Shown here one piece after another: positions 3,952-28,854 of a DNA stretch of 50,532 bases. This stretch comes from a virus. Location: the IMG/VR virus record IMGVR_UViG_3300035698_012149, positions 1-50,532 of that record; one strand, written 5' to 3'. The notes beneath the pieces are model-generated. The model had not been told where the DNA came from and ran no database searches. It saw nothing but the letters and a program-made list of their open reading frames with translations. Made by a program: the position numbers and the translations under genes. Within the stretch, counting starts at the first letter, position 1. The number at the start of each line of letters is the position of its first letter.

Positions 3952-5109
3952 CTATTGCTTTCGCCGGATGTCGTAGTAAATCTTGCTGGGGCCAGGAGAC
4001 TCTGGCTTTGGCATTTGCGACAATACCTGTAAAACAATTTCATTGACGTCGGGCGACAATCCCGCGTCTCCGCTGTCGCCCTTATCTCCTTTGGCTCCTT
4101 GTACTCCAATGAATCCCCTTGGCCCCGGCACCCCCGGTAATCCTGATTTGCCGGGGGTGCCGTTCAGCCCTGGTTCGCCGTCCACCCCCGCGGGGATAGG
4201 TTTAAGTCGCTTCAATTCTGCTATATCGGCCTGTAGCTGCGAGATTTGCTGCTGTAGCCCCTGCGTCCCGTTGGTGTCTATTATCGCAATCGCCTGGGCG
4301 GCGCCCCTGGGGGGCGGCTTGTCGTTGCTTTCCTGTCTCATTAGGCCGATGGACCTCAATGCTGCGGCTATTAGCCGCCTGATCGGCTTGCAGTGAGCTC
4401 CACTGGTGCCAGTAAGGTCGGTCCCCCATGCGATCGCAACTACCTCTCCCTGTTGGTTTAGGATTGGGCCTCCGCTATCGCCATCTCGCGATGGATGCTC
4501 AACCCGCACGAAAGATTTGTCCTGTTCTCCCTCGTCAGGGGACTCAAGTCTAGTCAATAAACCAGACGTCCGTCGCCATGATCTGTTAATCTCGCCCCGA
4601 TTGGTCCCCCACCCATTTATCCACAGCCTCGTACCGATTCTAGGCACGATTCTGGCGATTGCTAATGGTCGAACGTCCGGTCGCTTTATCCACAGTGCGG
4701 CTAGGTCTCGACGTTTGTCGGTATGAACAACACATGCCCAATATCGTCGCTTGTTAGGGAACGTCACCAAAATCTTTTCCTGAGCTCGTTCTACAATGTG
4801 CCAGTTCGTCAAGACAATGCCAGTGGTATCGTCCACCGCAACTAACACGCCCGTCCCTAGGTCCGTCTCGTTTGCTACTGGAACGGACACCATTACGACG
4901 GCTGGGTTAGCTACGACCTGACGAGCTGGATGAGCTGGACGAGCTGGACGAGGTTGGTGGACCTGTTGTTGTGGTATCGGGCATTGGCCGGACCAACAAC
5001 TATTACAAACTGGTCGTTGGCCGAATACGATGGTTGCCATCGCCAACATCAGACCAAAAAAAACTACCCAAAAAAAAACTGACGTCCACATTGAGTCTTT
5101 CCGACACAT
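3952..5109 (-). CDS. Membrane-anchored trypsin-like serine protease with collagen-like tail
   Basis: A 385-residue protein with four parts. Residues 8-29 form a signal anchor. A short Cys motif (C35, C38, C43) and a Pro/Arg linker to about 65 follow. Residues 70-240 form a chymotrypsin-fold (S1/DegP-like) protease with the full triad visible: H104 in TNWHIV, D135 in RRDLAALW and S212 in GDSGGP. After a coiled coil (about 283-302) comes an uninterrupted Gly-X-Y stretch of 14 triplets (308-349), collagen-like, and a short C-terminal cap. GGAGG precedes the ATG by six bases. The layout suggests an extracytoplasmic protease that trimerises through the collagen rod. Whether it acts in lysis, as a lysogenic surface protein or on the virion is not shown. 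No PDZ domain is seen. Confidence 0.9.
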   Translation of the reverse strand: MCRKDSMWTSVFFWVVFFGLMLAMATIVFGQRPVCNSCWSGQCPIPQQQVHQPRPARPAHPARQVVANPAVVMVSVPVANETDLGTGVLVAVDDTTGIVLTNWHIVERAQEKILVTFPNKRRYWACVVHTDKRRDLAALWIKRPDVRPLAIARIVPRIGTRLWINGWGTNRGEINRSWRRTSGLLTRLESPDEGEQDKSFVRVEHPSRDGDSGGPILNQQGEVVAIAWGTDLTGTSGAHCKPIRRLIAAALRSIGLMRQESNDKPPPRGAAQAIAIIDTNGTQGLQQQISQLQADIAELKRLKPIPAGVDGEPGLNGTPGKSGLPGVPGPRGFIGVQGAKGDKGDSGDAGLSPDVNEIVLQVLSQMPKPESPGPSKIYYDIRRKQ

Positions 5110-6526: not shown

Positions 6527-6870
6527 TATTTTCTCCTCGAAAAGAATTTGATTCGTCTCACCTGTGCGGCTAGCCGCCTCGCTCGACTAAGTAACCTCAG
6601 CCCCTCGCCACATCGCATACAATGTTCGCCACCCCTTATGTCCCACCACTTCTCACTCCAACCACATGCGAGACACGGCTCACCTGGCTCAACGCAGTCG
6701 GCCGGCCACCCGTCCGGCTCAAGGATAACTTCCGGCACCCATTGATAGCCGTCTACTGTTACGACCTCTCTGGCCGGCTGGGGGTTATCGTCTGGTTTCG
6801 GTTCTGGTTTCTTTATGATGTTTTCTGCCGTGTTAGCGTTATGCAGAAATTGGTTTAAGTTTGATTTCAT
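6526..6870 (-). CDS. Zinc-ribbon protein
   Basis: A 114-residue protein with a hydrophilic Pro-rich N-terminus and a CxxC...CxxC zinc ribbon (CLACG and CMRCG about 14 residues apart), then an Arg-rich C-terminal helix. GGAGG lies seven bases before the ATG. Its start overlaps the end of the primase-helicase gene (ATGA), so it may be a partner of that protein or of replication DNA. The function is not known. Confidence 0.75.
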   Translation of the reverse strand: MKSNLNQFLHNANTAENIIKKPEPKPDDNPQPAREVVTVDGYQWVPEVILEPDGWPADCVEPGEPCLACGWSEKWWDIRGGEHCMRCGEGLRLLSRARRLAAQVRRIKFFSRRK

Positions 6871-9641
6871 AACAAGACCTCCCCTTCTTCATCGATTATG
6901 TTTTCTATCATCCATTTCCAAGGGACAATAACGCCATACGAACGACGGCCACCAACTGTACATCGAAATTTTGAAGCACCCTCAAGCCTCGCTAATATCG
7001 TATCAACATTTTGTTTCTTCCATTGCTCTTCTAGTAATTTAGAACCAACTGCTCGGGTATCGAAAAATACAAAGTCCTGATGCCCGCTATCGAGTGGTCC
7101 CGAACGGCCCCGGGTAAATGTAATGCCATACCGGCCGAGCATTTCTCTAGTCTCGTCGCTGTAAAGAATCAACGCTTGGGCAACGGTCGTAGCATACCCT
7201 CGGTCGCCACGGACCTCTGCCATCATAATCTCTTGTATTAAATCTACTTCGTCTGATGCTGTTTCTACACTGGCATTACGATCGGCCGCGATATGAACAT
7301 CCACGATGAATTTTTTCAGAACCCCTCGCGATTCTACATCAGTATATCCGCAAGCGGTTGTGAAAATGGCAGTCGGAACCGCATAAGACTCAATGACTCG
7401 CGAATCCACACCCTCGATAGCATACGTTTTCATTTCGACAGCGACAGGAATCGCATTTGTGATCGCTTGGACAGTAGCAACAAATAAGTCTCGTCCGATA
7501 CTCCGCAGTTCAGTAAGCGGTGGAAGCTGGAGCTGCCCTTCGTTTTTCTTCTCAGGTACCAGTGTTTCGAGGGTGATGTATCTATTCCTATCAGGCGCTT
7601 TTTTCAATCCAACTTCAATAGCTGCTAACCAGAAAATATGTTTCAACGCACACTCAAAACCCTTCTGCCCCGGTGTGCCTCGTAGCACGTTATCGCCACG
7701 ACTCGACGCCCGAGCAAGTTCAAGGATCTCTTCACGATACTTGGACTGTTCAAATTCATCGGCCAGAATAATCGAAGCAGAGTCCTTAACCTTCTGTCTG
7801 ATTCCCGCGGCCGATGACTTACTCGATCGCACTGCTAGACTGCCGACAATCCCATCGACCGCCTCAAACAATGTACTCTTGCCGGACTTACTAGCGCCTA
7901 CCAACGCTACATGCGGTCGCCAGGGCCACATCGTCTGTACAAACGACGCCATAATCAACCCGACCAACAGTATAGGACACGATTCATTATTAGCCCATCG
8001 CCATCGAGCGAACAAAGCGATTGCCCGTTGGATTGCATCACGGCTCTTGGCCGGGGTCCAGTTTGCAAGCTCTCGTTCTAAATCGTCAAAACTGTACCAG
8101 GACTCGGTAGTCGAGTGGAAATTCAGTAACCGGCCGTAGGCACATGGCGTGAGGATTTTTGTGAGCATCTTAGCTACCGGATCCCAATACGCAGCCTCCC
8201 CCGCTCCAACAATCAATACACCTGATAAGTCGCTCCCGTCGTCGTTGTACGGTTGCCAACAACCGTGACCAATCAACTGATCGTCCAGCCTACATTTACC
8301 GGCCAAACTGCAAATTGCGTTACGAACCAGGGATAGCGGGAACTTTCCTTGAACGTCTTCATTGGCATCATTTACGCTATCAAGAACAATCGGTCCGGCG
8401 ATCTGGAGCAGCTTAGGGTACGTCACGCGGTCGAAGTCTCGAACCTCTACGGTCTTCTGCCGTTCGGGGTGGCCTGCGAATAGGACTACATTGCCATTTT
8501 CTCTTTCACCGAGCACCTGTAATTGCAGAGCTGCCACAATTCGTTCGTTAGGATCGATTTTCTCTACTGGCTGTTCAGTGTCAGTTACGGGGGCTACTGA
8601 CACAGTTTTGGCGAGTTCCTTGAGGTCGTTATAGGAATGTCCCTCAGCTAGCCAATCACGCAGATCTTGTCCTTTTGCTGGCAACACTGGATAGGGCAAT
8701 CGTATCTGGCAACATTTTGTGGCAAATGGAGTAATCGCTTGAATCCATTTTGCGGCCCCAACTTCGCCAGCTTGGTCGGCGTCATGGAGAATCCGAACAT
8801 CATGCCCACCGAATAGTAATGCAGTTTCCGAGCTGATATTTTCCGTGGCGCCACCTGAATTACAGATCACCAGATCCGTTTCCCGTTCCTCGGGTGACAT
8901 TACACTCCACAAGGCCAGCATGTCACTCGGGCCTTCCACCTTCCAAATCACATAGCTCTCGGAGCTGGTGGCGAGAGCTGACAGAGCCGTCTGTCCCATC
9001 AGGCCGCTTCGCGAACCCGCGACCGTCTTAATCTTGACGGTGCTCTGGACCTTACCCTGCTTATTCCAAATAGGCAGCGGCCGGCCACCCGTCTGCCAGA
9101 TAACGTATCCGATCGGGTCGGCCGCGGTGAGCATGGGACCATAGATCGGCATCGCGAGTACCAGATGTGCCTTGGATTTCGCGGGATGTCTCGCCAACTT
9201 ACAGCCAGCAGCCCGGACGGCCTCGGGCGTGATGGGTGGCTTGAGCCGGCACCACAACTTAACATGAATATCTAGCCAGGGCTCGATAACGATTTCGTTG
9301 CTAGGGTTCCGCTTCGGACGTCCTCTCGTTTCGAGACTCACCCCCGCTTCATTAGCGTAATGTTTCCGAGCCGCTTTCCAATCGTCATGCGGTCCGTGCT
9401 CGGCTGCAAAGTCCCACAACGACATTGAGGCGCCTTGCCCACCCTTATCGATGTAGTAGCCAGTGCTCACATTGATGGCGGCCGAAGGATTCTTGTCCTC
9501 TCTACCGATCGCACGGCAAGATAGAAAGCCTTTACCGTTCGGCTCGACTTTTGTGACGTCCAATCCTAACGATCGATATACGGCTACCACATCGATTGCT
9601 GTAAGGATGGCCGCGGTGGCTTCCTCGTATCTCTTACTCAT
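6867..9641 (-). CDS. Primase-helicase fusion (TOPRIM plus P-loop ATPase)
   Basis: 924 residues from ATG 9641, which overlaps the preceding nuclease stop by 8 bases. The N-terminal 100 residues resemble the DnaG-type template-binding region but lack its zinc-binding Cys set. A TOPRIM domain follows, with E236/D240 in EGPSDML and D287/D289 in LHDADQAG, the metal-binding residues of primases. The C-terminal half holds a P-loop ATPase with Walker A GASKSGKST (about 580-588) and Walker B SIILADEFEQ (about 620-629), of the DUF927/superfamily-3-like helicase type. It should prime and unwind the phage replication fork. No DNA polymerase is encoded nearby, so it presumably hands over to the host enzyme. 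Confidence 0.88.
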   Translation of the reverse strand: MSKRYEEATAAILTAIDVVAVYRSLGLDVTKVEPNGKGFLSCRAIGREDKNPSAAINVSTGYYIDKGGQGASMSLWDFAAEHGPHDDWKAARKHYANEAGVSLETRGRPKRNPSNEIVIEPWLDIHVKLWCRLKPPITPEAVRAAGCKLARHPAKSKAHLVLAMPIYGPMLTAADPIGYVIWQTGGRPLPIWNKQGKVQSTVKIKTVAGSRSGLMGQTALSALATSSESYVIWKVEGPSDMLALWSVMSPEERETDLVICNSGGATENISSETALLFGGHDVRILHDADQAGEVGAAKWIQAITPFATKCCQIRLPYPVLPAKGQDLRDWLAEGHSYNDLKELAKTVSVAPVTDTEQPVEKIDPNERIVAALQLQVLGERENGNVVLFAGHPERQKTVEVRDFDRVTYPKLLQIAGPIVLDSVNDANEDVQGKFPLSLVRNAICSLAGKCRLDDQLIGHGCWQPYNDDGSDLSGVLIVGAGEAAYWDPVAKMLTKILTPCAYGRLLNFHSTTESWYSFDDLERELANWTPAKSRDAIQRAIALFARWRWANNESCPILLVGLIMASFVQTMWPWRPHVALVGASKSGKSTLFEAVDGIVGSLAVRSSKSSAAGIRQKVKDSASIILADEFEQSKYREEILELARASSRGDNVLRGTPGQKGFECALKHIFWLAAIEVGLKKAPDRNRYITLETLVPEKKNEGQLQLPPLTELRSIGRDLFVATVQAITNAIPVAVEMKTYAIEGVDSRVIESYAVPTAIFTTACGYTDVESRGVLKKFIVDVHIAADRNASVETASDEVDLIQEIMMAEVRGDRGYATTVAQALILYSDETREMLGRYGITFTRGRSGPLDSGHQDFVFFDTRAVGSKLLEEQWKKQNVDTILARLEGASKFRCTVGGRRSYGVIVPWKWMIENIIDEEGEVLL

Positions 9642-10170
9642 TTTGTCTTTCCCAGAATTTATACAGGATTCTAAAAGCGACCACCTCAGCCGCTCGTCGG
9701 CCTGGCATGAGCCACCAATGGATCGTCGGAAAGTCAATCGACCATGCCACAATCGATCGCCTCACGCTTTTGCGAATTGCCTCACGCTTTGCCTCGCTAT
9801 GGTCAGACCAATGCTGGGGATTGTATTGCAAGATGTCTGACCAATCAGCCTCTACGACCACATGAGCAGACTGCATCCGGGCTAGAATTGCAAGCTCTCG
9901 CTTGAATCGATCGCGGCCGGACAGCAACGTGCCGTATAGGTCGGCAAGGGATTTCCTCTCAATAGAGATCTTCCAGCCAGTTTCCTCGTCCTCCATGCCG
10001 GCAATCGAATAGTCCCCCATAGACTGGCCCAGAGCTCTCCAGACCGTAGAGATAACGATTGGGTGATTGCCCTGCTTGCTATCGGTAGTCAACCCCTTGA
10101 AGGACCACGGGGTTTGCTCCATCGAGTCACGATAGATCGTGAATGGACATACTCTGAATTGATCTAACAC
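9634..10170 (-). CDS. ERCC4-type structure-specific nuclease
   Basis: 178 residues from GTG 10170, seven bases after GGAGG; a second in-frame GTG at 10173 is only four bases from it. It has the XPF/ERCC4 nuclease motif: GDYSIAG, then SIERKSLADL (the ERKxxxD signature), then GRDRFKREL. Such enzymes cut branched DNA such as flaps and Holliday junctions. It lies between the RecD-like helicase and the primase-helicase, fitting a role in recombination or in resolving replication intermediates. It lacks a helix-hairpin-helix tail. Confidence 0.87.
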   Translation of the reverse strand: MLDQFRVCPFTIYRDSMEQTPWSFKGLTTDSKQGNHPIVISTVWRALGQSMGDYSIAGMEDEETGWKISIERKSLADLYGTLLSGRDRFKRELAILARMQSAHVVVEADWSDILQYNPQHWSDHSEAKREAIRKSVRRSIVAWSIDFPTIHWWLMPGRRAAEVVAFRILYKFWERQNE

Positions 10171-10189: not shown

Positions 10190-12403
10190 TTAATTCATTA
10201 AGAGCTCTTGTAAAAAAGTCTTACGGTTTTGTAGCGACATCCTTTTGCACATTCTCAACGCTGTTCCCTGCCGGCCGACTAGAAAACACGCTCGTTTGGC
10301 CCGAGAGATGGCCGTATAGAGCCACGATCGGTCTGTGATTATCCGAGCGCCATGATGTTCGTCGAGCACCACAACAACAATGGGGCTCTCGGAACCTTGC
10401 ATTTTATGGCACGTAACGGCATAAGCCAAATCGAGATCGGGCCATTCACCATGTTCCCCTGGATATATCCGCACTAATCGATCGGTGGCTGGAAATTGGA
10501 CTACTAATCGTTTGGGCGTGAGCCCGGTTATGCGGCCTTGTTCTCCGTTACAAACAAGGTGAGACTCTGGTTCGTAATCACCTTTCTTGGCATTAAGCAA
10601 AAAGCCATTCCGCAGCCGAATAACTTTGTCATTTACCCTAAATTTTGTGCCGTCTATTGGTGGGTTAGGATTGAACTCAGCTTGTAGGAGCTCGTTCAGA
10701 TTGTTCCGAGACACAGAAGATCGATTATTGACCGCGACTATAACTTGACAATCCCAAACCGGATCAGCTAATTTCTGATCACGGATTTGCTGGAGTAACA
10801 ACAAAACCCGATCGGCCGCATATTTTTTGATTGTACGAGCCAGTACGAGGTTCCGGGGTGAACGAATGTCGAGATGCAGCTTGGCGTCCGGAGCCCATTC
10901 TTGTTCGTCACGGATCTTTGCGCAAACCTCTACAATCGAGCCGGAATTACGTCGGATCTCTCGCAGCTCTCCGCAAGCTACCCCCGCGGCGATCATATCG
11001 CGAAGAGGGGCTCCATGCTCGATCGGTGGCAGTTGGTTTATATCCCCAACCAACAACAACCGGCACCCCGGTTGTCGAGCAGCCAACAGTGCTGCAAGCA
11101 ATCCACAGCCCAACATCGATGCTTCGTCGCAGACGATGATCTTAGCCGGCAGTGGGCTCGCCTCATTGTGCTGGAAAACCCAATGATTGTTTACTACACT
11201 TTCAACGCCTAATGTTGAATGAATTGTTCGGGCAACAATCCGAACGCCGAGTTCGGCCATCGATTCAGTCAACCGTGTAGCAGCCTTGCCAGTTGGAGCG
11301 CAAACGATAATGTCGTCTTCGTCGTAATCATCGAGTAAATACTCGATGGCTGTTGCAGTGGTGTATGTTTTGCCGGTCCCTGGCGACCCACCGAGGATAC
11401 CAATACCACCTACGGCGATCGCCTTCATGTACTCTTCTGCCTGATGTTGCGATGGTAGTCCGTCGTTTGAAACCGTCCACGGCAATGGAGGCTGATTATA
11501 CACTTCCCCCATCGATTCGCGAACTTTCTCCGCAACATACGCTTCGTCCCTCGCCTTTTTGCCTTCCGCAAACCACAACCGACCGTCTTCATCGCGTCGG
11601 CTAACTAGCACTTCAGCCCGAACGCCTAATTTGCAAGCCCGAACTGGATCGATCTTTGTCCCGCTGATTTTCTCCCGAATTGCCTTCTCGATCATATCTA
11701 CCGGATGCCAGGTGTGACCGTCCATGTTGGTATTGAGCGCGTGCCAGGCACAAAGACACTGCCGTTTGAGTTTGTTGGGGTTGAATCCGAGATCGATGTA
11801 CATAGCATCAGCAGCAAGGAACCCGATACCCTTAATCTGCATCAGTAGGTATGGGTTCTGCCTGATCCGTTTTGCCGCGTGGAGACTCCACAGAGCAATT
11901 GCCTTATTTGGCGTATCCTTCGGGAACTTCCGATGTTCGAACAGCCCCATTAGGTCGATTGTGGTATCTTCTAGTGCTGCCATTGCGGCTAGTTTTTCGC
12001 TTGCTTGGATCGCCCGATACTCAGGGAATCGAGCTCCGATCGCAGCAGATGCCGCGGCTGGATTCTCTCGTAGCACCTTAACCGCTTCTTCGCGGAACGC
12101 CGTCCATAACTTGCAAGCGGTTGCTGTCCCGACATACGGAGCAAGTTGCAGATACCGGATGACGGCATTACGCGCGTGCGGCTCTGTCAGTATATACGTC
12201 TGAAACGCAAACCCCCGGCCGTACTTTATATGTTCGGTATGATGCCCAAAAAAACGGTACTCCAAACCAGGTCGGAGATCTTCCGCGGGCGTGTCGCCCT
12301 TAACAGTGGTTGGAGTACCATCTACTAGGATTTCGATTATCGCGAAACCGTCTTTTCTGAATTTCTCAAATGTGACGGTTCCAGTGATTTCGCATAGAGC
12401 CAT
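10190..12403 (-). CDS. RecD2-like superfamily 1 DNA helicase
   Basis: 737 residues. The N-terminal OB-like and helix-hairpin-helix region (about 1-300, including IKGIGFLAADAM) is as in RecD2/TraA helicases. Motor motifs follow: Walker A GGSPGTGKT, Walker B VCDEAS, motif III VGDINQLPPI, and near the C-terminus HKMQGSE and YTAISRAKR. It is a 5'-3' DNA helicase for replication or recombination. The ATG at 12403 has no clear ribosome site, unlike its neighbours, and 69 bases separate it from the preceding gene. Confidence 0.92.
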   Translation of the reverse strand: MALCEITGTVTFEKFRKDGFAIIEILVDGTPTTVKGDTPAEDLRPGLEYRFFGHHTEHIKYGRGFAFQTYILTEPHARNAVIRYLQLAPYVGTATACKLWTAFREEAVKVLRENPAAASAAIGARFPEYRAIQASEKLAAMAALEDTTIDLMGLFEHRKFPKDTPNKAIALWSLHAAKRIRQNPYLLMQIKGIGFLAADAMYIDLGFNPNKLKRQCLCAWHALNTNMDGHTWHPVDMIEKAIREKISGTKIDPVRACKLGVRAEVLVSRRDEDGRLWFAEGKKARDEAYVAEKVRESMGEVYNQPPLPWTVSNDGLPSQHQAEEYMKAIAVGGIGILGGSPGTGKTYTTATAIEYLLDDYDEDDIIVCAPTGKAATRLTESMAELGVRIVARTIHSTLGVESVVNNHWVFQHNEASPLPAKIIVCDEASMLGCGLLAALLAARQPGCRLLLVGDINQLPPIEHGAPLRDMIAAGVACGELREIRRNSGSIVEVCAKIRDEQEWAPDAKLHLDIRSPRNLVLARTIKKYAADRVLLLLQQIRDQKLADPVWDCQVIVAVNNRSSVSRNNLNELLQAEFNPNPPIDGTKFRVNDKVIRLRNGFLLNAKKGDYEPESHLVCNGEQGRITGLTPKRLVVQFPATDRLVRIYPGEHGEWPDLDLAYAVTCHKMQGSESPIVVVVLDEHHGARIITDRSWLYTAISRAKRACFLVGRQGTALRMCKRMSLQNRKTFLQELLMN

Positions 12404-15181: not shown

Positions 15182-16063
15182 TTAATTCCCGACCCGCGGC
15201 AGCATCTTAGAGAATCGAGCTGTGCCGGTAATGGTTTGATCCAGATACCCCATTGTGACAGCTTCACTAGAATGGCCGAGCATGGCCGTCGCATTACCTC
15301 CCACCCGATCGAGGTGGCTAGCGGTGGTCCTTCGGATCTTGTGGAACAGGTCTTTCCGGCCGGCTGGCAGCTCCGCGGCCTTCAGGGTCTTCCGGAGTCG
15401 AGCTACCAGGGCCGGCCAGTCCTTCCGATACCGATCATACGGCCAGGGGAATAGCCAGCGGGATTCGTGGAAGTTGAACATCTCGCAAACTACCTTGACG
15501 CAATCGTCAGGCAGATCGAACACCTGATCGGCGTTCTGCTTCTGGAGCTCGGCCGGTACGTGAAGGACGCTACCCCGCAGGTGCTTCCTCTCTAGGGCCA
15601 TTATGGCCGAGATCCGCAACCCAGTGTAATAGGCGGTCAGCAGTAACCCTTTCCACCAGAGCCGGCTGGGCGTTTTCCCTGTATAGCCGCGGATCCGGTC
15701 AACGGTCGCAAAAATCCGGTCCATCTCTTCGATTGTCCAGGCCTCGGGGAGCCGTCTAGGTTCGGGCAGCTTCCGTAACGTAGGCATAGGCGCCACGGTC
15801 ATCTTCTGCTCGACGGCGAACCGCCAGATTGCGAAAATGTGTCTCCGGACTTTGTTGGCCGTCGATGTCGAGCGGCCTTCAGCGATCAACTGGCCTAGAC
15901 AATCAGCCAGCAGCTTATCAGTCAGCTCGTCTAGATCGACCTCGCGGCCGACCGTCCGCTCAAAGTGTCGGAGGGCGTTCCGGTATTGGCGGTCCGTTCC
16001 TGCCGATCGGCCGAGCAACCTGAGCGAGTGGTACACCTCTCGGTAGAATGTGCAGATTTTCAC
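15182..16063 (-). CDS. int: Tyrosine recombinase (phage integrase)
   Basis: 293 residues from GTG 16063, which has GGAGG seven bases upstream and overlaps the preceding stop (GTGA). A longer frame from TTG 16114 is less likely. An N-terminal SAM-like core-binding domain (about 1-105) precedes the catalytic domain with R150 in YYTGLR, K175, H241 and R244 in HKIRR, H264 in LGHSS and the nucleophile Y273 in GYLD. All key residues are present. It should catalyse integration and excision and makes this a temperate phage. Translational coupling to the upstream regulator suggests that the two are expressed together. Confidence 0.93.
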   Translation of the reverse strand: MKICTFYREVYHSLRLLGRSAGTDRQYRNALRHFERTVGREVDLDELTDKLLADCLGQLIAEGRSTSTANKVRRHIFAIWRFAVEQKMTVAPMPTLRKLPEPRRLPEAWTIEEMDRIFATVDRIRGYTGKTPSRLWWKGLLLTAYYTGLRISAIMALERKHLRGSVLHVPAELQKQNADQVFDLPDDCVKVVCEMFNFHESRWLFPWPYDRYRKDWPALVARLRKTLKAAELPAGRKDLFHKIRRTTASHLDRVGGNATAMLGHSSEAVTMGYLDQTITGTARFSKMLPRVGN

Positions 16064-16584
16064 TTTGAGTCCTCCGTAAATGTCTCTGGGTATCGGGATC
16101 GAATTGCGTCCCAATTGATAATATCACATAGCCAAGACAAATCAGCTGAGCTAGCCGGGTCCATGCGTAACCCTCGGGCGATGCACACAATCCGCTTTGC
16201 CGCGGCCACCATCGCCAGCTCGGGGTCTTTCGTCCGGCCGGCCTCCCAGATGTGCCAGTGCTGGATCGATACACCCGCCTCCCCTGCACAATCGACTTGC
16301 GTCCGGTTGCCGCGTCCTACTTGGATCCGATCGGATAGCGTGTCGGCCAGCATATTATTCTTAATCAAGATCCCCTTCACCTCCCGACGTCGCTTGAGTG
16401 CCGCGTGGATCACGCCCACAGGTGGCTCCCACTTCGACATTGCTGCCAATACGTGAGCCCGGGAAACCCCCGGCTTGCATCGAGCTATCTTAATTTCCCG
16501 CTCGGTCGGTCCGTTGCCGATCGTCGTGAATACTTCAATCCGGCCGTTGCGAGTTGTCCGGACGGCTATCTTCTTAGGTGGCAT
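16060..16584 (-). CDS. XRE-like DNA-binding protein, possible lysogeny regulator
   Basis: 174 residues from ATG 16584 with GGAG seven bases upstream. The C-terminal half (about 93-140) resembles a Cro/CI-type helix-turn-helix: TQVDCAGEAGVSIQHWHIWE, followed by G and a helix rich in Ala, similar to the xxxWExGxxxP pattern. The N-terminal half is basic with no recognised fold. It is coupled directly to the integrase and follows an intrinsic terminator, so the pair forms its own unit. A repressor or excisionase role is inference from position. Confidence 0.6.
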   Translation of the reverse strand: MPPKKIAVRTTRNGRIEVFTTIGNGPTEREIKIARCKPGVSRAHVLAAMSKWEPPVGVIHAALKRRREVKGILIKNNMLADTLSDRIQVGRGNRTQVDCAGEAGVSIQHWHIWEAGRTKDPELAMVAAAKRIVCIARGLRMDPASSADLSWLCDIINWDAIRSRYPETFTEDSK

Positions 16585-25774: not shown

Positions 25775-26233
25775 TTAGTAGTAGTCCTTTTCGGGTGACT
25801 GAGATGGCTTTGGCGGTTCTGGTGGACTGTCGAGCGGTACGGGGGCTAGTGCGGACGGGTTGTACAGTTTTGGTGCTGGTGCTTCCACCATCCTGTTGGG
25901 CTGCACGATAGCCGCGGCAAGTGGGTTCAGCTTAAACTTCTTACATCGGCCGCGAGAGTTAAAGACCTTGCAGAGCGGATACCGCTGGTCCTCTACGGAT
26001 GGGTAGTCGAGTGGGTTCGTACCGCGTAGACATTCGTTTTGCTTCGGGTAGTATTTTATTACCCCCGTGACAGGGTTCGGGAGCGGGATCCGTTCGTGGC
26101 TTGGGTTGCCGCAACGATACTCACCCCGATCGAGGTCAACGAAAGTGCATTTCATACAGACTGCGAACCGCGACAGACACGGATCCTCATCGTTTGTCGG
26201 TTCTGGTTCCTGTTGGGTTTCATTATCAGACAT
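25775..26233 (-). CDS. Cys-rich NPxTG-family protein, member 3
   Basis: 152 residues from ATG 26233 with GGAGG six bases upstream. N-terminal acidic stretch, the Cys/NPxTG core (CMKCTF, YRCGNPSHE, LPNPVTGVIKYY, CLRGT, CKVFNSRGRCKKF), and a Pro-rich disordered tail (PEPPKPSQSPEKDYY). First protein gene of the leftward cluster, just after the tRNA. Confidence 0.8.
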   Translation of the reverse strand: MSDNETQQEPEPTNDEDPCLSRFAVCMKCTFVDLDRGEYRCGNPSHERIPLPNPVTGVIKYYPKQNECLRGTNPLDYPSVEDQRYPLCKVFNSRGRCKKFKLNPLAAAIVQPNRMVEAPAPKLYNPSALAPVPLDSPPEPPKPSQSPEKDYY

Positions 26234-26267
26234 CTTGGTCCTCCGTACCAAAAGAGTAAGAAAAAGA

Positions 26268-26340
26268 TTGCAGGGGCGGGACTTGAACCCGCAACCTCAA
26301 GGCTATGGACCTTACGAGCTACCAATTGCTCCACCCTGCG
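26268..26340 (-). tRNA. Initiator-type tRNA-Met (CAU)
   Basis: 73 nt, folds fully: acceptor CGCAGGG/CCCTGCA, D arm GAGC-AATTGGTA-GCTC, anticodon arm TAAGG-TCCATAG-CCTTG, T arm GCGGG-TTCAAGT-CCCGC, discriminator A73. The anticodon at 34-36 is CAU. C1 opposite A72 is an unpaired top pair, and the D stem has A11:U24; both are bacterial initiator hallmarks. It differs from the standard initiator in having C33 rather than U33, and A29:U41 rather than G29:C41, so the three-G:C stem is incomplete. No CCA is encoded. TCTTTTT follows directly, a likely 3' end or terminator signal. Confidence 0.88.
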
Positions 26341-26437
26341 ATATGCCCTTTTCTTAACATGGATTTTGCCTCTGAGCTACCCCGAGACGCCCAAACGGCC
26401 AAAAAAATAATGTTGACCAAATGGGGGGAGTTGGTAA
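26341..26437. other. Short divergent gap, tRNA-like fragment
   Basis: The gap between the leftward tRNA and the rightward late genes. On the minus strand, CTCGGGGTAGCTCAGAGGCA (26397-26370 region) resembles a tRNA 5' half with acceptor and D loop but no pairing D stem or 3' half, so it is probably a relic. No convincing promoter pair was found for either direction. Confidence 0.4.
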
Positions 26438-27007
26438 TTGTGGGGTGTTATGAGTAGATCAAAAATGCAAATTTATCATCAGTTAAGGAAATCAGGCCAA
26501 TGGGACGAGTACAGGGCGGTACGGGATAAGATGGTCGAGTCGTTACGAAATGGGGGAATGGGACGCGCTAAAGCGGCAGAAGCGGCCTCCGACAAATGCT
26601 CTGCACGGTTTCTCGAATCCAACGGTAGCACCTCCGGTACTGTTGTCGATTTAGAAACCTCGTCCCATTCTCCTGACTATGCTGGCTCTGTTGGTATGCC
26701 GACCCCGCCGCGGTTCAGAAAGAAAGAGACAGCCTCTCCGCGGGAGGAAGTTGAGTGGGTAGCCGACTCGCTTGGCCGGTGGTCAACTAAGGAGCCGCTG
26801 AAGATATGCCCGTCTCGAAACGCCTGGGGCCGGTTCTGCTTCGCGTTGAAGAACCCGGACCTGTTTTACAGGCAACGAGACACGATCATTAGTAAATTGA
26901 AAGATGACAATGAAGACAAGGACGTCGTTCTGGAAGCGAGGACGGCTGTCAAGGAGATCGAGGAGATGATTCGGTTGATTTGTGATTCAGCGAGGGCGAT
27001 GGCGTGA
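26438..27007 (+). CDS. Putative terminase small subunit
   Basis: 189 residues from TTG 26438, which has GGGGAG seven bases upstream; ATG 26450 is the alternative (185 residues). Small, helical, hydrophilic, directly before the large terminase and overlapping it (GTGA). The middle is Ser/Thr-rich and the C-terminal 60 residues are a helix-rich segment. It has no obvious sequence match, so the call rests on position and size. Confidence 0.55.
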   Translation: MWGVMSRSKMQIYHQLRKSGQWDEYRAVRDKMVESLRNGGMGRAKAAEAASDKCSARFLESNGSTSGTVVDLETSSHSPDYAGSVGMPTPPRFRKKETASPREEVEWVADSLGRWSTKEPLKICPSRNAWGRFCFALKNPDLFYRQRDTIISKLKDDNEDKDVVLEARTAVKEIEEMIRLICDSARAMA

Positions 27008-28854
27008 AAAAGAATAACACGTTTTTATCGGACACGCGAGTTGAAATTGAGGAACCGTTCTACCACCTGGTCCCCAAGACCGTCCGAGAGAACCTGTTGT
27101 ACCGCCAAGCGATTGCCAAACACCTAATGAAACATCCGTCTGCGATCGGTGGGCTCCGTGAGGCGTGTCGGTTGGATATGCTGTTCTACGTCAATACGTT
27201 CGTCTGGACGTTCGACCCCCGCCGACCGTGGCTGAAGAAGATCCCGTTCGTTACCTATGACTACCAAGACGAAGCGATCCGCTCGATACTCGACGTTACC
27301 CGGAACGGTGGCGACCTGTTGATCAAGAAGTCGAGAGATATGGGTGCTAGTTGGCTATGTCTGATGGTCTACGAATGGCTGTGGCATTTTTACTCTTACA
27401 ACAGTTTCCTAATCGTTGCCCGAACGGCCGAGGGTGTGGACAAACCTGGCGATAGCAAGAGCCTGTTTTGGAAAGTTGACTTCCTACACAAGCACCAACC
27501 GAAATGGCTGATGCCGGCAGGCTTCATTAAGAAGAAGCATCGACTCAGCAACCACTTTGAGAACCCGGAGAACGGCTCGGTAATCGATGGTGAAGCAACG
27601 ACAACTAATGTGGCCCGAGGCGATAGACGAACGAGTATTCTGCTAGACGAGTTTGCTGGGGTGCCGAACGGGTTCCACGTTCTGTCCTCCACCCGTGACG
27701 CAACCAACTCTCGGATTTTCAACAGTACACCACAAGGCACTGCTAACGCCTACTACGCGATGACACTGCGACCGATTACGCAACTGCGATTCCATTGGAC
27801 TCAGCACCCACTAAAGAACAAGGGGCTGTACAAGAGTACGGAAGGTGAGCTCCAGCTCGTAGATAAGGAGTACGAACATGAAGTAGATTACGAATTTGTT
27901 TTGGACGATCGGATCCGTTCGCCTTGGTACGACCTACAATGCGAACGGGCCGCGTCCTTGCAAGAGATTGCTCAGGAGCTCGACATCGACTTCCTTGGCT
28001 CGGGCCATCAGTTCTTCAAAGCTAAAATTATCGAGGAAGTAGTTCAGAAGTACGCTCGATCTCCACTACTGACCGGCGACTTGGAATACGAACGAGAGAC
28101 CGGACTCCCCTTGGAGTGGCGACAGAATGTTAATGGCCGGCTCTCGCTATGGATTAACTTGGACGGCGCCGGCAAACCGATCATAGGCAATAACCAGTAC
28201 GTGATTGGCTGTGATGCGGCCGCGGGTACGGGTGCGAGTAACAGTGTGGCAAGCATCTGGCATAAAGTGACGAAGGAGAAAGTGGGGTCGTATGTGAATC
28301 CAATGATCTCGCCAGAATCGTTTGCCGGCCAGGCTGTGGCTTTGTGTCGCTGGCTCGGGAACGCTTTCCTGATCTGGGAGACGCAAGGGACCGGCCGACA
28401 GTTCGGTGATCGGGTAATTGCTCTGGATTACCTGAATTGCTACTTCCGACGTCCGGAGGACCAGGTTTCAAAAAAAGCCTCCGACATTCCCGGTTGGTAT
28501 CCCAGTAAGGACAATAAGCTGTCGTTGTTGGGCAACTACCGACAGGCACTAGAGACCGACAACTGCCTCAATCGCGACGAGCTTTCGTTACGAGAGTCAA
28601 TGGAGTATATGTTCACAGGCGATGGATCGGTAGAGCATGTGTCTACTGTAGTCAATCGTGAAGACCCTAGCGGGGCTAAATCGCAACACGGCGACAGGGT
28701 AATTGCCGACGCTCTAAGTTGGCATGTAATTAAGGGTGAACGGTCGCAAGTAATTGAGACTGTGGTGCCGGTATCTTGTGCTTCGTTAGCTGGCCGGCGC
28801 CAGAAGCGAGAGCGAAGCATACGTCAATCCGGATCAATTTTCCAATTCAAATAG
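27004..28854 (+). CDS. terL: Terminase large subunit
   Basis: 616 residues from GTG 27004. ATPase: Walker A-like KKSRDMGAS (109-116) and Walker B ILLDE (213-216). Nuclease: D404 in IGCDAAAG and the later Asp pair in HGDRVIADAL (D564, D569), the RNase H-like metal site. It packages genome DNA into the prohead. The KSR-MG pattern is typical of large terminases without a classical GKT loop. It is preceded by the small subunit candidate and followed by the portal. Confidence 0.93.
   Translation: MKKNNTFLSDTRVEIEEPFYHLVPKTVRENLLYRQAIAKHLMKHPSAIGGLREACRLDMLFYVNTFVWTFDPRRPWLKKIPFVTYDYQDEAIRSILDVTRNGGDLLIKKSRDMGASWLCLMVYEWLWHFYSYNSFLIVARTAEGVDKPGDSKSLFWKVDFLHKHQPKWLMPAGFIKKKHRLSNHFENPENGSVIDGEATTTNVARGDRRTSILLDEFAGVPNGFHVLSSTRDATNSRIFNSTPQGTANAYYAMTLRPITQLRFHWTQHPLKNKGLYKSTEGELQLVDKEYEHEVDYEFVLDDRIRSPWYDLQCERAASLQEIAQELDIDFLGSGHQFFKAKIIEEVVQKYARSPLLTGDLEYERETGLPLEWRQNVNGRLSLWINLDGAGKPIIGNNQYVIGCDAAAGTGASNSVASIWHKVTKEKVGSYVNPMISPESFAGQAVALCRWLGNAFLIWETQGTGRQFGDRVIALDYLNCYFRRPEDQVSKKASDIPGWYPSKDNKLSLLGNYRQALETDNCLNRDELSLRESMEYMFTGDGSVEHVSTVVNREDPSGAKSQHGDRVIADALSWHVIKGERSQVIETVVPVSCASLAGRRQKRERSIRQSGSIFQFK

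Follow-up and report, generated by a model that had tools for sequence, protein, structure and literature searches.

An initiator-type tRNA with C33 in a tailed-phage contig and the enrichment of C33 among viral initiator tRNAs

The only tRNA called by ARAGORN in the window, a 50,532-nucleotide stretch of DNA that forms an IMG/VR virus contig, is a tRNA-Met(cat) (26266-26341, minus strand) with C at position 33, which raises the question of whether it is a working initiator and, if so, why its anticodon loop departs from U33. The Rfam tRNA model covered 26268-26340 end to end (54.2 bits; E 5e-9 for the whole window). Numbering by hand on the minus strand showed a C1xA72 mismatch at the acceptor end with 2:71 to 7:66 all paired, a D stem of G10:C25, A11:U24, G12:C23 and C13:G22, an anticodon stem of U27.G43, A28:U42, A29:U41, G30:C40 and G31:C39, the seven-base anticodon loop UCCAUAG (U32-C33-C34-A35-U36-A37-G38), a perfect T stem (GCGGG/CCCGC) and A73 at the discriminator position; CCA is not encoded. 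This direct reading confirmed the CAU anticodon, C1xA72, A11:U24 and C33 reported in a first-pass annotation of the locus, as well as the incomplete G:C stem at 29-31/39-41, in which A29:U41 stands with G30:C40 and G31:C39. U32 facing G38 is a further oddity, absent from that annotation's list. The Levitt position is A15:U48, compared with G15:C48 in nearly all comparable viral initiators; both sides have changed and the tertiary contact is kept, which argues for a working molecule. The folding energy was 3.3 sd below that of dinucleotide shuffles. Because the free minimum-energy fold was not the cloverleaf, more weight belongs to the covariance score.

The features of a bacterial-type tRNA-fMet were found in part. 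The window tRNA has CAU in a complete cloverleaf, an unpaired or weak 1:72 and purine11:pyrimidine24, and departs from that class in having G:C at two of the three pairs 29-31/39-41 (A29:U41) and C33 in place of U33. Judged from its letters, it is a variant and not a standard member of the bacterial-type initiator tRNA-fMet class. Compared with E. coli tRNA-fMet (metZWV/metY), it shares CAU, C1xA72, A11:U24, G30:C40, G31:C39, G26:A44 and the D-arm core GGUAGCUCG, and differs in C33 (U33 in E. coli), U32-G38 (C32-A38), A29:U41 (G29:C41), A15:U48 (G15:C48) and the absence of an encoded CCA. The assignment to initiator type made in the first-pass annotation was upheld by the acceptor mismatch, A11:U24 and two of three G:C pairs, and no pattern of an elongator Met or an Ile(CAU) tRNA, either of which it had named as fatal to the idea, fitted the window tRNA. 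Initiator identity and structural integrity are supported by these features, which indicate that the window tRNA is intact and of initiator type. tRNA-Ile2(CAU) and elongator tRNA-Met were considered and rejected, since they need a paired 1:72 and pyrimidine11:purine24, whereas the window has C1xA72 and A11:U24.

Table 1. Position, strand and basis of assignment of features in the window
Feature	Position	Strand	Basis
Initiator-type tRNA(CAU) with C33	26268..26340	-	ARAGORN Met(cat), Rfam RF00005 54.2 bits, direct reading
Anticodon loop U32-C33-CAU-A37-G38	26302..26308	-	Direct reading
Possible second tRNA, truncated to its 5' half, immediately upstream of the initiator tRNA	26345..26392	-	Direct reading
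Protein gene opening the leftward run, immediately downstream of the tRNA	25775..26251	-	No family match
Terminase large subunit, early gene of the rightward run	27004..28854	+	phrog_2, phrog_5989; five relatives
Tyrosine integrase	15182-16114		
RecD2-like helicase	10190-12403		
Primase-like protein	6867-9752		

The whole of IMG/VR was scanned with the pattern GGTAGCTCGNNNGGNCCATANCC. C33 initiators were found on 114 viral contigs, nearly all of them real by inspection, and U33 initiators with the same pattern on at least 120, both counts being confined to initiators with the D-arm core and G30, G31, C39 and C40 that the motif fixes. These numbers contradict the first-pass statement that phage initiator tRNAs are rare, and with at least 120 matches U33 is probably the majority letter among viral initiators. 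A purine at position 33 gave four matches with the same pattern, two of which were real tRNAs; two viral G33 initiator-like tRNAs (L513 and L514, loops CGCATAA and CGCATAT) are the only real purine33 cases found. Both letters were counted fully in three narrower anticodon-stem contexts, with near-identical tRNAs merged. The C33/U33 numbers were 9/32, 6/7 and 8/24, so that 23 of 86 distinct viral initiators (27%) had C33, a share that would be lowered by prophage edges with host tRNAs, which IMG/VR contigs may include. A fourth context (TCA) gave 19 C33 against at least 120 U33, indicating that the share varies by context and is lower in this one. A single tRNA gene was present at 61 of 98 distinct C33 loci (up to 15 kb each) and at 76 of 119 U33 loci, and the number of tRNAs per locus did not separate C33 from U33 phages. 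An initiator is thus often the only tRNA gene that a phage carries, as would suit a need for initiation and not codon compensation.

The pairs of the variable stems were 98.5% standard in 85 distinct viral C33 tRNAs, against 73% with shuffled partners. Position 1:72 was unpaired in 84% of them and G26:A44 was present in all 85; the D-arm columns are invariant by construction, since only tRNAs with the D-stem letters GAGC were parsed and the D-arm core is set by the motif. On these pairing statistics, viral C33 tRNAs are constrained initiators and not decaying genes. The letters of the unpaired 1:72 vary (U.U, C.A, A.C), and 29:41 was G:C in 31 of the 85 and another pair in 54. In the viral U33 set, 29:41 was likewise not G:C in 65 of 97 initiators, implying that its relaxation is a phage trait independent of C33 and that A29:U41 does not bar the window copy from the initiator class. 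Among the tRNA positions compared, only 72 differed between the C33 and U33 sets. Viral initiators (L007-L240) were also seen to vary at 1:72 (U.U, A.C, C.U, C.A) whatever the base at 33, and about half of them have A29:U41, again independent of base 33.

Bacterial initiators were sampled with the same motif in genomes drawn evenly from three phyla, and E. coli was searched separately. Planctomycetota (119 genomes, 65 matches) gave one C33, in the centre genome, which had been chosen for C33; Actinomycetota (149 genomes, 144 matches) gave two, in the chosen centre and in genome G440; and Bacillota (199 genomes, about 150 listed matches) gave C33 in the chosen centre and in one copy in genome G161. 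Without the chosen centres, C33 accounted for 2 of about 354 bacterial initiators (0.6%), a difference of about 45-fold between phages and hosts. A Fisher test (23/63 versus 2/352) gave p of about 8e-16, to be taken as a guide and not as exact because the sequences are related and the host count was made by eye from listings. Across 21,056 initiator places in 5,395 E. coli genomes, no genome had a perfect match to the C33 query. Enrichment of C33 in phages is supported by these samples. U33 is treated as nearly invariant; in the contexts counted, roughly one phage initiator in four breaks this rule, and almost none in the sampled hosts do, a contrast that offers a clean basis for comparative work on why tRNAs are carried by phages.

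Genome G440 had been drawn without regard to C33. Its C33 gene lies among genes for terminase, portal, protease and major head protein and its other initiator has U33, so the prophage and host copies have different anticodon stem-loops. In the Nocardioides assembly G010, a metagenome bin that may mix organisms, the contig with C33 carries phage-family genes and the U33 gene is on another contig. C33 initiators were found in assemblies of Weissella, Leuconostoc, Erysipelotrichales, Saccharibacteria, Elusimicrobia and some Phycisphaerae, a lower bound obtained from a scan of genome contigs. C33 was the only detected initiator in Weissella confusa, a Phycisphaerales chromosome, Solobacterium, a Saccharibacterium and a clostridial genome, and in two further Lactobacillales both initiator copies, on one contig, have C33. 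Bacteria in which only C33 initiators were detected support the view that C33 is compatible with bacterial initiation, as it appears from these genomes. Among the C33 lineages L246, L252, L290, L254, L257, G501 and G509, a U33 initiator was not detected in several. Native bacterial C33 initiators such as those of Weissella and Leuconostoc share C33 with the window tRNA and are apparently the only initiator in some genomes, but they are chromosomal whereas that of the window is carried by a phage; the Weissella tRNA likewise lacks an encoded CCA, but has the loop CCCAUAA and G29:C41. A literature search for bacterial C33 initiators found none. Metazoan tRNA-Met(i) shares C33 (PMC9023262) and differs in other initiator identity features, its C33 being presumably of independent origin.

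The reading that we prefer, although we hold it at somewhat less than even confidence, is that the window tRNA works as an initiator and that selection specific to phages acts on its loop, most likely for resistance to enzymes such as VapC that act on the anticodon loop. The phage tRNA would be charged by the host methionyl-tRNA synthetase and formylase and would enter the ribosomal P site, and protein synthesis would keep starting during infection. The change from U33 to C33 may be tolerated because initiators skip the A-site decoding step, which relies most on the U-turn. C33 would change the loop presented to host enzymes that attack it to inactivate initiator tRNA (VapC-like toxins or similar), and it would be kept in phages if their copy outlasts the cutting of the host's. 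We infer charging and use in the window phage, as well as resistance to a nuclease, from the comparisons above. The first-pass proposal that the tRNA keeps initiation going when host tRNA is destroyed gains favour as a prediction, because C33 is strongly enriched in phages relative to hosts and the initiator is the only tRNA gene nearby at most C33 loci. Phage tRNAs with anticodon-loop changes have been predicted to resist VapC (PMC10264068), T5 tRNA-Lys has been shown to resist PARIS AriB (PMC12409363), and the VapC toxins known from several bacteria cleave tRNAs where the anticodon stem meets the loop, tRNA-fMet being among their targets (PMC8522696). However, these VapC cuts are described at the stem-loop border and not at 33, which counts against evasion of a nuclease. 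So does the report by van den Berg et al. that, where tRNA-fMet is a target of VapC-LT2, phages as a rule avoid carrying a gene for it (PMC10264068), together with the tRNA-free terminase relatives described below. In mycobacteriophage C1 tRNAs and in T5 tRNA-Lys (against PARIS AriB) the phage anticodon stem-loop also differs from the usual host copy; those cases have a named nuclease, whereas the present case is an initiator changed at 33 and known from sequence alone. A prior report of a C33 phage initiator class was not found in the open-access literature searched, subscription papers being mostly outside the search. It is less likely than not, but plausible, that C33 marks a recurrent, convergent class of phage initiators selected to survive a widespread host defence on the initiator anticodon loop, with native-C33 bacteria having fixed the same escape.

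A serious contender is that the tRNA is a functional phage initiator in which U33 to C33 is near-neutral, P-site loading needing only a pyrimidine at 33 and accessory copies drifting more. This would agree with native C33 in some bacterial lineages and its occurrence in eukaryotic initiators (PMC9023262), with the variation of phage initiators at 1:72 and 29:41 whatever the base at 33, and with U to C being a transition, the commonest kind of substitution. Weaker constraint on phage tRNAs, with C as the only tolerated alternative, is possible and counts against selection. However, drift should also loosen pairing and the other tertiary positions, and these are nearly fixed in the face of the roughly 45-fold phage-host difference. 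A difference of that size in a molecule otherwise so nearly fixed speaks for selection over drift, although not decisively.

It is improbable that C33 was simply inherited from a host lineage already having it, with no phage-specific meaning. Several C33 bacterial lineages also have no encoded CCA, like the window tRNA. However, the window tRNA is not close to the listed bacterial C33 initiators (U32, G38, A15:U48, U27.G43), and the C33 phage genes of G010 and G440 sit in genomes that also have U33.

We consider it very improbable that the C33 tRNA shifts start-site choice, for example toward phage messages or GUG/UUG starts. C33 removes the usual U-turn hydrogen bond and could thereby change P-site pairing, but start usage in the window looks ordinary and some bacteria appear to live on C33 alone. 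The first-pass annotation had noted many GTG and TTG starts, which was not borne out, ATG being the commonest: a crude Shine-Dalgarno-weighted call, which favours ATG, gave 55 ATG, 10 TTG and 4 GTG for 69 genes, and taking the first possible start gave 43 ATG, 16 TTG and 10 GTG. With the anticodon letters unchanged, its suggestion of altered start-codon choice found no support.

Least probable of all is a decaying tRNA or uncharged decoy, a reading to which the possible tRNA fragment adjoining the tRNA and the relatives without the gene could point, but against which stand the full-length covariance match, the pairing of all stems, the change of both sides of the Levitt pair to A15:U48 and the constraint on the viral C33 class as a whole.

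The window is an IMG/VR virus contig with genes for terminase, integrase, a RecD2-like helicase and a primase-like protein, and the terminase large subunit marks the record as that of a tailed phage. Genes run leftward from 26251 and rightward from 26438; the tRNA lies in the gap between them on the minus strand and is thus the first in the leftward gene run. The likely true start of the protein gene that follows it is an ATG at about 26232, after GGAGG, which makes a good ribosome-binding site. The fragment GTCTCGGGGTAGCTCAGAGGCAAAATC at 26345-26392 (minus strand) looks like a truncated tRNA of which the acceptor strand and D arm are left; it was detected neither by ARAGORN nor by Rfam at a low threshold. 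A promoter and terminator scan around the tRNA gave nothing clearly beyond chance, and the window proteins scanned with Pfam (part of the ORFs) included no translation-related or nuclease genes. Five records whose terminase is related (32-50% identity), several of them fragments, showed no tRNA, suggesting that the gene is dispensable and accessory. Megablast of the middle of the window against phage records gave no match, and the terminase had only 21-25% identity to phage records among the matches listed, so that no close relative and no host could be assigned. A reading frame at 3952-5109 (minus strand) codes for a trypsin-like peptidase domain and, after it, a collagen-like repeat; the product may be a tail protein that carries a protease. 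One C33 initiator is shared by two different contigs, L060 and L079 (42 kb and 103 kb), which come from the same two metagenomes as terminase relatives of the window phage (L002 and L003).

Among the 14 INPHARED records first examined, C33 was present in one, that of Janthinobacterium phage Donnerlittchen, whose initiator gene is flanked by those for terminase and ribonucleotide reductase. In betaproteobacterial hosts the initiator is expected to have U33. A phage assigned to the same subfamily as Donnerlittchen, Stenotrophomonas phage QDWS359, has a U33 initiator in the corresponding place, with terminase and ribonucleotide reductase genes on either side, and Variovorax phage VBv52, whose record has no annotation, carries a close U33 relative of the QDWS359 tRNA. 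With Donnerlittchen, a cultured phage carrying C33 makes the question testable.
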